Shown piece by piece: positions 53,257 to 60,108 of a DNA stretch of 64,000 bases. The position numbers and the translations under genes were made by a program. The DNA is from Candidatus Blochmanniella camponoti (GTDB taxonomy: Bacteria > Pseudomonadota > Gammaproteobacteria > Enterobacterales > Enterobacteriaceae), in NCBI RefSeq assembly GCF_023585825.1, contig NZ_CP097751.1:186001-250000 (forward strand), written 5' to 3'. The notes below the pieces were generated by a model. The model searched no databases. It saw only the letters and a list, made by a program, of their open reading frames with translations, and was not told where the DNA came from. The first letter of the stretch is position 1, and each line of letters starts with the position of its first letter.

Positions 53257-54834
53257 TTATTCCCATTCAATAGTAGCCGGAGGTTTTGAGGAAATATCGT
53301 ACACCACACGAGATACTTCCTCAACTTCATTGACAATACGATTAGATACCTTATTTAAAAAATCATAAGATAAATAAGCCCAATGTGCTGTCATAAAATC
53401 TATAGTTTCCACTGCACGAAGAGCAATTACCCACTTATACTTACGCTGATCACCCTGTATTCCTACTGAATGCATCGGTAAAAATACTGCAAAAGCCTGA
53501 CTAATTTTAGAATATAAATGTTCACGCTTAAGTTCTTCAATAAAAATAAAATCTACTTTACGTAAAATATCACAATATTCTTTTTTTACTTCACCTAATA
53601 TTCTAATAGCTAACCCAGGTCCTGGAAATGGATGACGATAAGCTATATCGTAAGGTATCCCTAAATCCAATCCAATACCGCGAACTTCATCTTTAAATAA
53701 ATTTCTTATAGGCTCTAGTAATTGAATATTCGTAATTCCACAAAAACCACCTACATTATGATGCGATTTAATCACATTTTTAAAAGAAGATAAAGATACA
53801 CCAGATTCAATAACATCTGAATATATAGTACCTTGAGCTAACCATTTTACATCTACTAAATTGCGAATTTGCTCTTCAAAAACTTCTGTAAAAACTCTAC
53901 CAATTATTTTTCTTTTTTTCTCTGGATCATTAACTCCAATTAAAGCATCGAAAAATCGTTGTTCTTTCGACAGATAAATAATATCTAAATTACAATTTAG
54001 AGCACAAAAATTTTTAATTCGATCAAATTCATAATTTGATAATAACCCATGATCAATATGGATACAGATAAATTGATGACCAATGGCGCGTCGTAATAAT
54101 AAAGCTGTAACAAGGGAATCAATCCCGCCTGAAAACCCAAGCACTACTTTATCATTACCTACTTTTACACGAGTATCCATAACAATATCATCAATAATAT
54201 TCGCTATTTTCCAAGAAGATTTACAGCGACAAATACACGTAACAAAACGTTCTAAAATACTTTTTCCTTTTTTAGTATGAGTAACTTCCGGGTGAAATTG
54301 AACACCATATAAATGACGATCTTCATTAGCCATCATAGCAACTTGTTGATACTTATTAATACCAACAACCGTAAAATCTTTGGGAACAGTAGTAACAACA
54401 TCCCCGTGACTCATCCATACATCAAGAGCAAAACGTCCCGTAACACCATCAACATAATCATAGATATCATCTATAAGAACGCTTTTAGAAAGAATTGTTA
54501 CTTGAGTACAACCAAATTCACGCTGTGCAATAACACGTTCTACTCGTCCACCTAATTGAAACGACATAATTTGCATCCCATAACAAATTCCAAATATAGG
54601 TATACCTAATTGAAACACAAATTCAGGAATATACGGAGAATAACTATCGATAACACTATGAGGACCCCCAGAAAGAACAATACCATTAGGATTAAATTCA
54701 TATACTTGAGATTCGCTGATGTTCCAAGAACAAGTTTCAGAATATACTCCTAGTTCACGAATTCTTCTCAACAATAACTGAGTGTATTGAGATCCAAAAT
54801 CTATTACTAAAATACGATGATTGTTACATTTCAC
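53257..54834 (-). CDS. guaA: GMP synthase (glutamine-hydrolysing)
   Basis: Converts XMP to GMP. It has 525 residues, as in E. coli. The class I glutamine amidotransferase domain has the nucleophile Cys84 (GICYGMQ) and the His-Glu pair in QFHPEVTHT. The ATP pyrophosphatase P-loop SGGIDS follows, then the C-terminal dimerisation domain ending KPPATIEWE. It lies 143 bases after guaB, as in the E. coli guaBA operon. Confidence 0.97.
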
Positions 54835-54977: not shown

Positions 54978-56447
54978 TCATCGTAAACGATAATTAGGCG
55001 ATTCCTTTGTTATCATCACATCGTGCACATGACTTTCCTGCATGCCCGAATAACTGACACGCACAAACCTAGCTTGTGTCCTCAAATCATTAATAGTAAC
55101 GCAACCCGTCAAGCCCATACAAGAACGCAAGCCACCCATCAATTGATGTATAATTGTTTCTAATTTTCCTTTGTAAGGAACACGTCCTTCTATCCCTTCC
55201 GGAACCAATTTATAAGTAATAACAGGATCCTGTTGTTGAAAATATCTATCAGCAGAGCCTTGAGACATAGCCCCTAAAGAACCCATACCTCTATAAGTCT
55301 TAAAAGATCTACCCTGATAAAATTCTATATCTCCTGGAGATTCCTCTGCACCTGCTAGCAACGAACCAATCATTACACAATGCGCGCCAGCCGCTATCGC
55401 TTTAGCAATATCGCCAGAAAAACGAATACCACCATCCGCGATAACCGGAACATTCGTATTTTTTAAGGCTTCCGCCACATCAGAAATAGCTGTAATTTGC
55501 GGAATCCCTACACCAGTAACAATACGAGTTGTACAAATAGAACCAGGTCCAATACCAACTTTCACTGCGCTAGCACCAGATTCGACCAATTCTAATGCAC
55601 CTTCTTTCGTAACAACATTGCCCCCTATAATTGATAAATCAGGATACATATTTCGAACTGTTGCAATACAATTTAATACTCTCTCTGAGTGCCCATGAGA
55701 AGAATCAACAAGTAATACATCTAAACCAGCATCAACCAAGCCTTCAACACGCTCTTTATAATCTTCTCCTACTCCAATAGCAGCTCCAACACATAACCTT
55801 CCATAATTATCTTTGCACGCATATGGCTTACGTTCTGCTTTTTCAAAATCCTTTGCAGTGATCATACCTTTAAGACGAAATGCAGCATCAATCAACAAAA
55901 TTTTTTCTACTCTTTTATCATGCATTTTACTTAATACTACTTCTCTATTTTCCTTTTCTAACACTGTAATTAAACGTTCTTTAGGAGTCATAACAGAAAA
56001 AACAAAATTTGATAAATCACTGGCAAACCTGACATCACGACTCGTAACGATTCCAACTAACTCATTTGTGTCCGTTACAACTGGATAGCCAGCAAATCCA
56101 TTGCGAGAGGTCAACTCTTTCACTTGCAATAAAGTCATATCAGGAGTAACACATTGAGGATTCGTTACTATTCCGCTTTCATAACGTTTAACTCGACGTA
56201 CCTCATTAATCTGTTGATCCAAAGACATATTTTTATGAATAAAACCCACCCCGCCTTCTTGCGCTAAAGCAATAGCTAGGCTCGCCTCAGTCACCGTATC
56301 CATCGCCGATGATACAACAGGAATATTCAAAGAAACAGCATTAGTCAAAAAACTTTTTAAAACCGTCTCCGCAGGAAGCACCCTCGAACGAGATGGAACG
56401 ATCAACACATCATCAAAAGTCAAAGCCTCTTTAACAACAGTCAACAT
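54978..56447 (-). CDS. guaB: Inosine-5'-monophosphate dehydrogenase
   Basis: NAD-dependent oxidation of IMP to XMP, the control point of guanine nucleotide synthesis. It has 489 residues (E. coli 488). The catalytic Cys305 is in GPGSICTTR, and the two CBS repeats lie between about residues 93 and 200. The flap motif [10 protein letters not shown] is intact. First gene of guaBA; its promoter should be in the spacer with the skew reversal. Confidence 0.98.
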
Positions 56448-57055
56448 TACAATTATCAGTATACCCTAAACTACAATAATGACATTGCTACGACGGAAAT
56501 TCGATTTCAGCACTATACCTTCTGACACCAAAAAATTTAAACAACACACACCAAAAACACAGACACCAAACAACCAAGCTCAAAATCAAATCCCGAACAC
56601 CAGCAGACTAACCCTAGAAGATCAAGGAACAACACACTATAAATTAATAATTATACGTTCTATAACACCTAACGGTGTTAGTTCTATCATGAATTATGTA
56701 ATTAATCAAGTTTAGAATGCAAGTTATAAAATTTAATCATTAAAGAATTTTGTTAAGGTTATGTGTAAATTGATATGGTATTAGTTGTAAGTGTATTGTG
56801 TGTATGAAGCGTCAGTAGTTAAGTTTTTATTAAAATAAAATTATTATTTTGATTATGTTATTTGTATTAAACGTTAAAAATATGATTTAATGCTGTTTTT
56901 TAATTGTTTTTTTGGAATTTATTTTTATTTCTTTATTGAGATGTGGTCTAATTATAAGGATTTTTGTGTGGTGTGTAAATTGTGTGTTATTAACAGTTTT
57001 TTGTCTTTATTACGGTAACTAAATACGTTAAGTATGCTATTAATTGAGTAATTAT
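56448..57055. other. Candidate replication origin region (skew reversal)
   Basis: 608 bases between guaB and mqo. Left of about 56.66 kb the plus strand is extremely C- and A-rich (56521-56580: 19 C, 3 G). Right of it, it is G- and T-rich (56761-56820: 17 G, 2 C). The change from negative to positive G-C skew is the direction expected at an origin. A T-rich stretch at about 56836-56940 could unwind. I find no TTATCCACA DnaA box and only one GATC in the spacer. The E. coli gene here, xseA, is absent. Confidence 0.55.
56657..56687. repeat. Small hairpin flanked by direct repeats at the skew switch
   Basis: TAACACC-TAAC-GGTGTTA (56663-56680) is a perfect 7-bp stem with a 4-base loop. The heptamer GTTCTAT lies on each side (56657-56663 and 56681-56687). 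It sits within about 50 bases of the skew reversal. Confidence 0.7.
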
Positions 57056-58603
57056 ATGAGTAATGTTGCTGTTATAAATCAAGAACATCGATTGATTAAA
57101 ATTACATCTTCAGCAGATGTGGTGCTGATTGGCGCTGGAATTATGAGCGCAACTTTTGGTACGTTCTTAACAATTCTTGAGCCAACTTGGAAAATTCATA
57201 TATATGAGCGTCTTAATCAGCCAGCACAGGAAAGCTCTAACGTATGGAATAACGCTGGTACAGGACATGCAGCATTTTGCGAGCTTAACTATACTCAATA
57301 TAATAACAAAAATTGTTCCGTTGATATTTCAAAGGCTATTGCTATTAATGAAGCATTCGAAATATCGCGGCAATTTTGGGCATATTTAGTACAAATAAAA
57401 GTACTTAAATATCCGAGTTCCTTTATTAATAATGTACCGCATATGAGTTTTGTATGGGGCGAAGAAAACGTTTGTTTTTTAAAAAAACGCTTTCAAGCAT
57501 TGCTAAATAGTGTTTTGTTTAGTGGTATGGTATATTCGGAAGATTTACAGCAAATTCGTCAGTGGGCTCCTCTTATTATTGACGGACGTAATGTATCGCA
57601 GAAAATAGCCGCCACTCGCATGGAAATGGGTACAGATGTTAATTTTGGAGCACTTACTCAACAATTATTGAATGAATTAAAAAAAAATGTAAATTTTAAA
57701 ATGTATTTACAGCATGATGTTGGATCTGTACAGAATAATAATGATGCAACTTGGGATGTGCATGTAATTGATCGACGCTGTAACCACAAAAAATGTATTC
57801 GTACAAATTATGTTTTTATAGGAGCTGGAGGAAGATCTCTTAGTCTTTTGCAAAGTTCTGGAGTTCCAGAAGTTTGTGGATACGCCGGATTTCCGGTAGG
57901 AGGTCAGTTTTTAGTCACAAAAAACCCGAAGATAGTTGCACAACATTTAGCTAAAGTGTATGGGAAAGCGTCTGTTAACGCTCCTCCAATGTCAGTACCT
58001 CATATAGATACTAGAATATTGAATGGTGAGAAGATTTTGTTGTTTGGCCCCTTCGCAACTTTCAGCAGTAAATTTTTAAAATATGGATCATGGCTAGATT
58101 TATTTCATTCTTTAAATAAGCATAATATTATTCCGATTTTGCAAGCTGGGATAGATAATTTTGATTTAATTAAGTATTTAATCGGTCAGTTAGTTATGTC
58201 AAACATGAATCGTATTGATGAGCTTAGGGAATACTATCCGACGGTTAACCCGTCAGATTGGACTTTAGTAACAGCAGGACAACGCGTTCAAATTATTAAA
58301 AGAAATAGCAACAAGAGAGGTATTTTACAATTTGGAACAGAAGTGGTTAAATCTAGTGATGGTACTTTATCGGCGCTTCTTGGTGCATCTCCGGGAGCAT
58401 CTACTGTAGTTTCAATAGTCTTACAACTTTTGGATACAATGTTTAATAATAAAATTAATAGTGATTTGTGGAAAAATAAAATTATAGATATGATCCCATC
58501 ATATACTAAAAATTTAAACGGTGATCTTATATTAGTAAATAAGATTAGACAATATACTTGTAATGCTTTGAAATTAAATTATATAGAAGCAATAGATCGT
58601 TAA
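57056..58603 (+). CDS. mqo: Malate:quinone oxidoreductase
   Basis: FAD enzyme on the inner face of the membrane that oxidises malate to oxaloacetate and reduces quinone. It has 515 residues from the ATG at 57056; an in-frame TTG four codons earlier is less likely. The FAD-binding VVLIGAGIMSATFG is near the N-terminus. NNAGTGHAAFCELNYT and FPVGGQFL are typical family motifs, and the C-terminal GASPGAST is intact. In E. coli mqo lies elsewhere. Confidence 0.95.
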   Translation: MSNVAVINQEHRLIKITSSADVVLIGAGIMSATFGTFLTILEPTWKIHIYERLNQPAQESSNVWNNAGTGHAAFCELNYTQYNNKNCSVDISKAIAINEAFEISRQFWAYLVQIKVLKYPSSFINNVPHMSFVWGEENVCFLKKRFQALLNSVLFSGMVYSEDLQQIRQWAPLIIDGRNVSQKIAATRMEMGTDVNFGALTQQLLNELKKNVNFKMYLQHDVGSVQNNNDATWDVHVIDRRCNHKKCIRTNYVFIGAGGRSLSLLQSSGVPEVCGYAGFPVGGQFLVTKNPKIVAQHLAKVYGKASVNAPPMSVPHIDTRILNGEKILLFGPFATFSSKFLKYGSWLDLFHSLNKHNIIPILQAGIDNFDLIKYLIGQLVMSNMNRIDELREYYPTVNPSDWTLVTAGQRVQIIKRNSNKRGILQFGTEVVKSSDGTLSALLGASPGASTVVSIVLQLLDTMFNNKINSDLWKNKIIDMIPSYTKNLNGDLILVNKIRQYTCNALKLNYIEAIDR

Positions 58604-58692: not shown

Positions 58693-60108
58693 TTATTTAT
58701 TAATAAATGGATTAATATTGTCTTTAAATTGCATGTGCAATAAAACACCTGTGATGTTTAACATACGATAAAAATATTTTTTTAGATATCGTTTATAATC
58801 ATCAGGTAATTTGCTGACGTGAGTGCCATGGATAATCAGAGTTAATGGTTCATGTTTTCCGACATGGATATATTTGGGTTTAATTCTTTTACCGTGTAAA
58901 AATGGCGGGGGGTATTTATCGATTGCAGCGTGCAATATTCGAATTAAATATGCTGTATTGATGGTTTTTGTATAACGAGAACATAAGTTCGTTGATTTGA
59001 TTGTTTGAAATAATGTTTTAATTCCCTTTCCGTACAATGCTGAAATAAAATGTATTTGAGTAAAACTAATAAAATTTATTTTTTCGTATAATTTTTTTTT
59101 AGTTGTATTGCGCAAATCTGGGGATATCAAATCCCATTTGTTAATAACGATTATTAATGCTTTACCATTATTTAGGATAAATTGTAACAAATGTAAATCT
59201 TGATCAGATATCCCCAGATTTGCATCTCCTATGAATAGGAGAATGTGCGCAGTCTTAATGATTTGAAATGTTTTTAGAATAGAAATTTGCTCCGCTACAT
59301 TATCTATTCTTTTGCTTTTTTGTATGCCTGCCGTATCAATCAATATGTATTTTTTTTTGTCATATATTATAGGCATATGAATGCAATTCCGAGTAGTTCC
59401 TGGTGTACTACAAGTAATCATACGGGTTTCTTCTAAAATATGATTGACAAAAGTAGATTTACCGGAATTGGGACGTCCTACAACTGCTACCGTGATAGCA
59501 GAATCTACTTTATTACATGATGGATTAATGATGTGGTTTTGATAAATAGTGTTATTTACATTACTTTCAGGTATTTTATTTTTGTAAAAAAATATATTTT
59601 TTGAAATTAATGAAGATATATTTTCTAACAAATTATCAATTCCATGCCCATGAATCGCTGAAATAAAGATAATATTTTTTGTACCAAAAGAACAATAATC
59701 CCACGTCAGGGTATGTATATGATGTGGGATATTATCAATTTTATTAACGACAATAAATATGTTTTTTTTTATTTTTTTCAAAAAATTAAAAATATCGTAA
59801 TTTATAGATGTTCCTACGGATTGTCTATCCATAACAAATAATAGAATGTCAGCTTCTTGCATGGCGAGAGTTGTTTGATAGGTTACATAACTTTGAATAT
59901 TTTCTGTGTTTGTACTACAAAATTTATCAATACCCCCAGTATCAATAAGAATAGATTTAAATTGTTTGCATTGAAAATAACCATATTGTCGATCTCGTGT
60001 TAATCCTGGATAATTAGATATTAAAGCATCATGTGTATGTGTTAATTTATTGAATAAAGTAGATTTACCTACATTTTTTTGCCCAATTAGCGTGATGATA
60101 GGTAGCAT
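58693..60108 (-). CDS. der: Ribosome-assembly GTPase Der (EngA)
   Basis: Tandem-GTPase needed for maturation of the 50S subunit. It has 471 residues (E. coli 490). First P-loop GQKNVGKS at 9-16 with NKID at 122-125; second P-loop GRPNSGKS at 211-218 with NKWD later; then the KH-like C-terminal domain. It is convergent with mqo (89-base gap). On this side of the window the plus strand is G/T-rich even over minus-strand genes. Confidence 0.97.
   Translation of the reverse strand: MLPIITLIGQKNVGKSTLFNKLTHTHDALISNYPGLTRDRQYGYFQCKQFKSILIDTGGIDKFCSTNTENIQSYVTYQTTLAMQEADILLFVMDRQSVGTSINYDIFNFLKKIKKNIFIVVNKIDNIPHHIHTLTWDYCSFGTKNIIFISAIHGHGIDNLLENISSLISKNIFFYKNKIPESNVNNTIYQNHIINPSCNKVDSAITVAVVGRPNSGKSTFVNHILEETRMITCSTPGTTRNCIHMPIIYDKKKYILIDTAGIQKSKRIDNVAEQISILKTFQIIKTAHILLFIGDANLGISDQDLHLLQFILNNGKALIIVINKWDLISPDLRNTTKKKLYEKINFISFTQIHFISALYGKGIKTLFQTIKSTNLCSRYTKTINTAYLIRILHAAIDKYPPPFLHGKRIKPKYIHVGKHEPLTLIIHGTHVSKLPDDYKRYLKKYFYRMLNITGVLLHMQFKDNINPFINK

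Follow-up and report, generated by a model that had tools for sequence, protein, structure and literature searches.

Where does a chromosome begin to replicate once the gene for its initiator is gone, and does its base composition still point to the right place? This question is raised by the spacer between the divergent genes guaB and mqo in a Blochmannia genome (hereafter G000) that consists of a single contig, a chromosome of 790,946 bp. The window, that is, the whole stretch of DNA that was analyzed, spans 64,000 nucleotides and corresponds to positions 186001-250000 of this contig; coordinates up to 64 kb refer to the window, and higher ones to the chromosome. A first-pass annotation of the window described a sharp reversal of strand composition within this spacer and took it for a probable chromosome origin. 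The base counts behind this claim are exact (19 C and 3 G at 56521-56580; 17 G and 2 C at 56761-56820), and the contrast of 31 between these two 60-bp windows compares with a maximum of 26 at the same spacing in the whole window outside 56.0-57.0 kb. With 300-bp flanks, the strongest skew boundary of the window falls at 56697, with a difference of 1.15, compared with 0.62 for the best boundary more than 1 kb away. In 2-kb bins, the raw GC skew runs from -0.24 to -0.31 across 51-57 kb, rises to +0.17 and +0.13 in the bins that start at 57001 and 58001, and thereafter stays between -0.01 and -0.06 up to 64 kb. Thus, the switch is as sharp as had been claimed; the excess of G over C ascribed to the right side is weaker than the wording of the annotation implied, given that it fades to near zero up to 64 kb. 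The genes named in that annotation (guaA, guaB, der, hisS, ispG and rlmN) are called correctly; the gene immediately to the right of the switch, mqo on the plus strand, was absent from it (Table 1). The contention that the reversal is not an effect of gene orientation is borne out by third-position skews split by gene strand and by the composition of der.

Table 1. Features at and around the skew switch, in window coordinates
Feature	Position	Strand	Remarks
guaB/mqo divergent intergenic spacer	56448..57055	.	608 bp; GC skew left half -0.37, right half +0.65, contrast 1.02
Switch point	56668..56710	.	maximum-likelihood GC change ~56674; 2-lnL interval 56668-56710
Small hairpin AACACC-TAAC-GGTGTT at the switch	56664..56679	.	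read from sequence; putative, function unproven
Conserved 26-bp element adjoining the switch	56685..56710	.	from spacer alignment among relatives
guaB, IMP dehydrogenase	54978..56447	-	
guaA, GMP synthase	53257..54834	-	
mqo, malate:quinone oxidoreductase	57056..58603	+	divergent from guaB; in 14/14 genomes
der (engA) GTPase	58693..60108	-	plus strand G-rich despite minus-strand gene

So does the chromosome as a whole place its origin in this spacer? Cumulative skews were calculated from 480,946 of the 790,946 bases, with the gaps filled with flank averages, and the two skews name different origins because their minima lie at different sites. The sampled cumulative TA skew has its minimum at 242,747, within the guaB-mqo spacer. 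The sampled cumulative GC skew stands at -10,163 at 242.66 kb, where the plus strand switches from negative to positive in the manner of an origin, and drops to its lowest value, -11,448, at 379,509, at mnmG; it peaks at 643,887. The annotation had proposed to check whether the global minimum falls at 56.5-56.9 kb of the window, with a minimum elsewhere refuting an origin; the TA skew has its minimum there, and the GC skew has its minimum elsewhere. The GC maximum at 643.9 kb is close to the antipode of guaB-mqo (638 kb), as befits a terminus opposite this site. The skew value R, a strand-corrected GC skew of third codon positions split by gene strand, divides the chromosome into four compartments: about -0.3 to the left of 242.6 kb, where the plus strand is strongly C-rich; about +0.09 in an intermediate zone between guaB and mnmG (242.6-380 kb); about +0.25 past mnmG, dropping to +0.03 to +0.16 towards 628 kb; and about -0.1 in another intermediate zone from ~628 kb to 790 kb. 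Zones of this kind, at 242.6-380 and ~640-775 kb, are expected from a 137-kb move of the origin between guaB-mqo and mnmG (which starts at 379,761) combined with a matching shift of the terminus. The local switch in G000 amounts to 1.15 at the guaB-mqo spacer and to 0.96 at the mnmG spacer; the latter measures 0.45-0.90 in other measurable genomes and 1.49 in the genome G006. The guaB-mqo site is not an origin of the yibN-hldD type, which is discussed below: hldD is located at 340,274, and the skew step there is weak (0.41).

Comparison with the relatives puts this ambiguity into an evolutionary perspective. Throughout the set of 14 Blochmannia genomes, G000 included, the relative order and orientation of guaB (minus strand), mqo, hldD and mnmG (all plus strand) are kept, and the guaB-mnmG spacing remains within 117-138 kb. 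The sampled skew switches at guaB-mqo in nine of these genomes (G000, G003, G008, G010, G007, G013, G011, G009 and G002), at mnmG, the ancestral site, in three (G004, G005 and G006), and near yibN-hldD, at +81 to +107 kb from guaB, in two (G001 and G012). The comparison of the spacer among Blochmannia species that the annotation had suggested thus finds the switch recurring. The change point of all nine genomes with the guaB-mqo switch is 78-273 bp away from the guaB start codon (offset 226, interval 220-262, in G000) and no more than 85 bp from the site of the 26-bp element. In G001 and G012, the change points are 115 and 725 bp upstream of hldD, respectively, which reproduces the published yibN-hldD origin. 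The coordinates of guaB identify G001 as B. floridanus (BX248583.1). We take G003 to be B. pennsylvanicus and G004 and G005 to be B. turneri and B. obliquus.

The 26-bp element is found with at most 3 mismatches in 9 of the 14 genomes, including G006 and excluding G002, which has 5 mismatches, and it is single-copy in each genome except for G013, which has three copies. In five genomes, 79% of the 33 columns of the element region are invariant, versus 34% to the left and 60% to the right. The element is possibly a part of the guaB promoter; it is not among the predictions of a promoter scan. At the position of the hairpin, G013 has another short stem, CCCT-AGC-AGGG. In the same genome, at ~237,558-239,799 of G013:C1 (L046, L333), the guaB-mqo spacer and the start of mqo are present three times, with the middle copy inverted and the copies 99.35-100% identical; this inverted triplication resembles origin-dependent inverted-repeat amplification, but it could be an assembly artefact. 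The mqo gene of G012 (L338) contains one in-frame TAA and might be a pseudogene in that lineage.

The genomes differ in how settled their skew appears. In G002 it is near settled, with R of -0.25 to the left, +0.48 to the right and +0.33 to +0.35 beyond; in G000, G003, G008 and G010 it is unsettled, with R of about 0 to +0.1 across most of the guaB-mnmG interval. These four genomes form a clade that is nested, with a support of 100, between G007 and the G013 group. G006 lies outside the clade that unites G000, G007 and the G013 trio, and with a support of 49 for its placement relative to G002, the tree does not separate retention of mnmG from a return to it in this genome. The local-contrast statistic does not set G006 (0.57) apart from the non-users G001 (0.75) and G004 (0.73), and we accordingly claim no fossil origin there.

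Composition integrates over a long past, so which way do the forks move now? We counted substitutions private to one tip, corrected for strand, in aligned stretches from both arms (left, L; right, R), from the guaB-mnmG interval (A) and from the interval that faces A across the chromosome (B). The tips of G000, G003 and G008 were pooled, with G010 as the outgroup, and the G010 tips were kept separate; the measures were log2(C>T per C / G>A per G) and log2(T>C / A>G). Columns within 3 bases of a gap and codon classes represented by fewer than 100 ancestral bases were excluded, an example of the latter being the plus-strand genes in zone A for C>T in the G013/G009 pair. In one earlier polarized count, G010 singletons were used only if G007 agreed, and none came from R2 and B2, where no G007 sequence was aligned.

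On the pooled tips, the C>T versus G>A measure is -0.63 in L, -0.52 in A, +0.60 in R and +0.22 in B, and the T>C versus A>G measure is +0.10, +0.21, -0.43 and -0.10, respectively. On a C>T scale from L=0 to R=1, zone A is at 0.09 (90% interval -0.25 to 0.29): in these three genomes, the interval mutates like the left arm, and recent mutations do not diverge from guaB-mqo. According to the net flux, G declines relative to C in A (-0.0197 ± 0.0037) and increases in B (+0.0142 ± 0.0036); the control arms L and R show +0.0049 and -0.0070. Zone B is only partly right-arm-like in these recent mutations, and single genomes are uneven (G008, +0.09 in A3 and -0.22 in B; G003, +0.05 in A2). In G013/G009, zone A is nearer to the right arm, at 0.60 (0.20 to 1.03) and 0.65 (0.28 to 1.23), and zone B is on the left-arm side (0.77 and 1.38). 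This positive control is soft, with C>T for A at -0.01 ± 0.16, between L at -0.43 and R at +0.27; the flux in this pair is -0.0093 ± 0.0051 in A, +0.0306 in L and -0.0232 in R, and such regression of the arms to the mean is a sign of parsimony bias.

On longer branches (the stems and G007), the controls of the C>T/G>A measure come out with the wrong sign, L being positive and R negative, and the G007 fit has no usable R class, so that G007 and the stems are read from T>C/A>G alone. In this class, zone A is right-arm-like in G007, at 0.92 (0.75 to 1.16), and intermediate in G010, at 0.53 (0.03 to 0.86); it is likewise intermediate on the stem of the four-genome clade (+0.07, with L at +0.53 and R at -0.25) and resembles the left arm on the G000/G003/G008 stem (+0.33, with L at +0.30 and R at -0.68). 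The mutation pattern suggests that guaB-mqo acts as an origin in G007 and, less sharply, in G013/G009. When G006 is compared with five others using unpolarized differences, zone A, at +0.99, is left-arm-like (L +1.08, R -1.05), as expected with an origin at mnmG. Zone B of G007 (L306, L326) aligns with G000 over only ~13.6 of 20 kb, which points to inserted, deleted or rearranged sequence near the terminus. Our first model, based on composition alone, had guaB-mqo as a newly acquired origin; it was rejected in view of the polarized substitutions, which argue for the reverse.

In our view, the guaB-mqo spacer is probably a fossil chromosome origin that was abandoned recently, as initiation went back to mnmG. 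The first-pass annotation would then have been right in recognizing an origin site, as the recurrence of the switch in nine genomes indicates; as a claim about the main origin of today, it is at odds with the left-arm-like interval A on the tips. Under this scenario, the ancestors would have replicated bidirectionally from guaB-mqo, which would have stamped opposite base compositions on the two sides, and guaB-mqo would already have been in use when G007 and the G013 group diverged. After the split from G007, on the branch leading to G000/G003/G008/G010, initiation would have moved back to the ancestral site upstream of mnmG; the direction of the forks would have been reversed in 242.6-380 kb and ~640-775 kb, and the composition of these zones would now be drifting back. 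That initiation took place physically in the spacer is inferred, as are the date of the return and the machinery responsible for initiation. What speaks against this scenario is the strong G excess that persists in the right half of the G000 spacer (+0.65): spacers evolve fast and would be expected to lose such a bias before other sequence does, and the substitutions counted within this half (6 of 48 for C>T and 13 of 123 for G>A) are not numerous enough to settle the matter.

Could both sites fire at present, in different cells or on different chromosomes? Dual firing, which we consider unlikely, would be in keeping with the intermediate composition of both zones, with the local switches at both spacers in G000, and with the intermediate recent mutations of zone B and of G010; the position of zone A on the scale between the two arms, however, implies that guaB-mqo starts at most about a third of the rounds. 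Slightly less plausible still is the idea, an extension of the view taken in the annotation, that guaB-mqo is the main origin today, recently gained from mnmG, with the intermediate zones still adapting. The TA-skew minimum, the compositional terminus near the antipode of guaB-mqo and the extreme local skew in the spacer all favor this idea, but on the G000/G003/G008 tips the interval groups with the left arm in two substitution classes, G013/G009 and, for T>C, G007 lean the opposite way in this test, and the settled-looking G002 already switches at guaB-mqo, so that the move there is probably old.

A local transcription effect of divergent promoters is a very improbable cause of the switch: it does sit between divergent genes, next to a conserved element that is possibly a promoter, but its contrast of 1.02 stands against at most 0.20 (mean -0.02) in 22 divergent spacers (200 bp or longer) from sampled stretches outside the window, the mnmG spacer left out, and -0.11 to 0.36 in the five other divergent spacers of the window, the same gene pair has no strongly G-rich right side in G001, G012, G004 and G005, and the composition change spans over 100 kb. 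Equally improbable is a recent inversion or misassembly that joined arms of opposite skew; such junctions look like abrupt switches, yet the gene order, orientation and spacing are constant in all 14 genomes, in line with the case that the annotation had made against an inversion, and the switch recurs in nine assemblies within a spacer that is alignable among relatives.

If the spacer served as an origin, what machinery could have been involved? In keeping with the lack of dnaA reported for B. floridanus, to which the annotation had pointed, a search with the TIGR00362 profile gave no match in G000. The gene was not found in 12 of the 14 genomes, is intact in G004 and is represented by fragments in G005, in agreement with the intact dnaA of B. 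turneri and the dnaA pseudogene of B. obliquus described in an excerpt of PMC4389277. In profile searches that, as in the case of dnaA, each included E. coli among the positive controls, recA was found in none of the 14 genomes and priA in none above the curated cut-off; the weak 16-20 bit priA matches in 7 genomes likely represent another helicase. DnaB and RNase H are present in all 14 genomes; no convincing DnaC-type loader was detected, with PF01695 above the cut-off in 3 of the 14, one of these matches being inside the dnaA of G004. In E. coli, constitutive stable DNA replication initiates without DnaA at ectopic sites (oriK), requires RecA and PriA, and is seen in the absence of RNase HI. 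Blochmannia is unlike this system: with RecA and a recognizable PriA not found, stable replication of the known, RecA- and PriA-dependent kind would not be available, and RNase H is retained. Neither does the site resemble a DnaA-dependent oriC, considering that no dnaA gene was found in G000 and that the spacer has no cluster of DnaA boxes. The spacer contains no DnaA box (TTWTNCACA), as had been stated; as support for a DnaA-free origin this absence carries little weight because the window has 11 boxes versus 12.05 expected by chance. A link between guaB and DnaA was considered in view of the published DnaA box inside E. coli guaB and was dropped because, according to an excerpt of PMC11317965, ChIP-seq did not detect binding at this box.

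Palindromes were considered as a general origin mark and rejected, being missing at other likely origins and, when long, not rare in the background. At or beside the guaB-mqo switch, palindromes have arms of 19 in G007, 26 in G013, 30 in G011 and 15 in G009, and of only 10 in G002; the hldD spacer of G001 has a palindrome with arms of 37. Those of G007, G013, G011, G009 and G001 are unrelated in sequence and lie on the switch or within tens of bases of it. In the four-genome clade where guaB-mqo looks abandoned, the arms are AT-rich and not longer than 12. With a filter of G+C of at least 0.2, no palindromes were detected upstream of mnmG in G000 and G006 or upstream of hldD in G012, those upstream of mnmG in G008 and G010 are away from the switch, and arms of 15 or longer are absent from the guaB-mqo spacers of G001, G012, G005 and G004. 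The background density of palindromes with such arms is 3.5-11 per 100 kb in 13 genomes and zero in G004, overlapping stretches included; for three Blochmannia genomes, an excerpt of PMC3017870 gives 20, 10 and 6 large palindromes.

Judging by open reading frames, the spacers in question separate divergent genes at guaB/mqo in G000, at mnmG in G006 and at hldD in G001 and G012. As a working guess, negative supercoiling in a long spacer with divergent promoters might open an AT-rich or hairpin-forming stretch, where DnaB would be loaded; so weak an opening requirement would leave the origin free to move. A bolder version, which we regard as rather improbable speculation, holds that without DnaA, RecA and PriA the origin moves among a few supercoil-sensitive divergent spacers, to which it may return, with the long palindromes of the genomes where guaB-mqo looks active as the opening device. 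If this were true, mnmG, yibN-hldD and guaB-mqo would be interchangeable sites, and the origin of this genus would no longer be fixed by an initiator.

Whatever the mechanism, three different sites seem to serve as origins among related genomes, and one of them was apparently given up so recently that composition and current mutation disagree; these genomes are thereby a natural set of replicates for studying what defines an origin once the initiator is gone. The origin of a bacterium that lacks the usual initiator gene could thus be followed while moving, and skew minima can point to a past origin.

How does this picture compare with what is known? In cyanobacteria, DnaA-independent replication has been described and initiation measured (PMC7198777, excerpt); there likewise, the dependence on DnaA was lost, the skew is irregular and the origin is not tied to oriC. 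Blochmannia would differ in using one discrete site at a time, as read from composition and mutation only. Within the genus, relocation of the origin is already known: in B. floridanus and B. vafer, it was reported to have shifted to between yibN and hldD (PMC3017870, excerpt). As with guaB-mqo, the genus is the same, dnaA is missing, and the origin was deduced from GC skew away from mnmG. The guaB-mqo site differs in being 137 kb from mnmG, versus ~32 kb for yibN-hldD, in belonging to another clade, and in having apparently been abandoned again in the clade of the window. An origin at mnmG has been published for most Blochmannia (PMC4389277, excerpt) and, next to gidA/mnmG, for B. pennsylvanicus; the latter agrees with the present origin that we propose for G003, and the second switch at guaB-mqo is not mentioned in the excerpts concerned (PMC4389277, PMC3017870). 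No paper that names guaB-mqo as an origin, or describes a return to mnmG, was recognized among the literature matches listed, and within these both the site and the return appear to be new. Finally, B. pennsylvanicus has been placed among the chromosomes with unequal replication arms, with skew disequilibrium as one possible reason (PMC2099444, excerpt). An origin at mnmG combined with a maximum near 264 kb (the G000 maximum projected onto G003 coordinates) would yield arms of ~264 and 528 kb, an inequality in keeping with a terminus signal that has stayed with guaB-mqo; a fossil origin may thus explain the unequal arms reported for B. pennsylvanicus.
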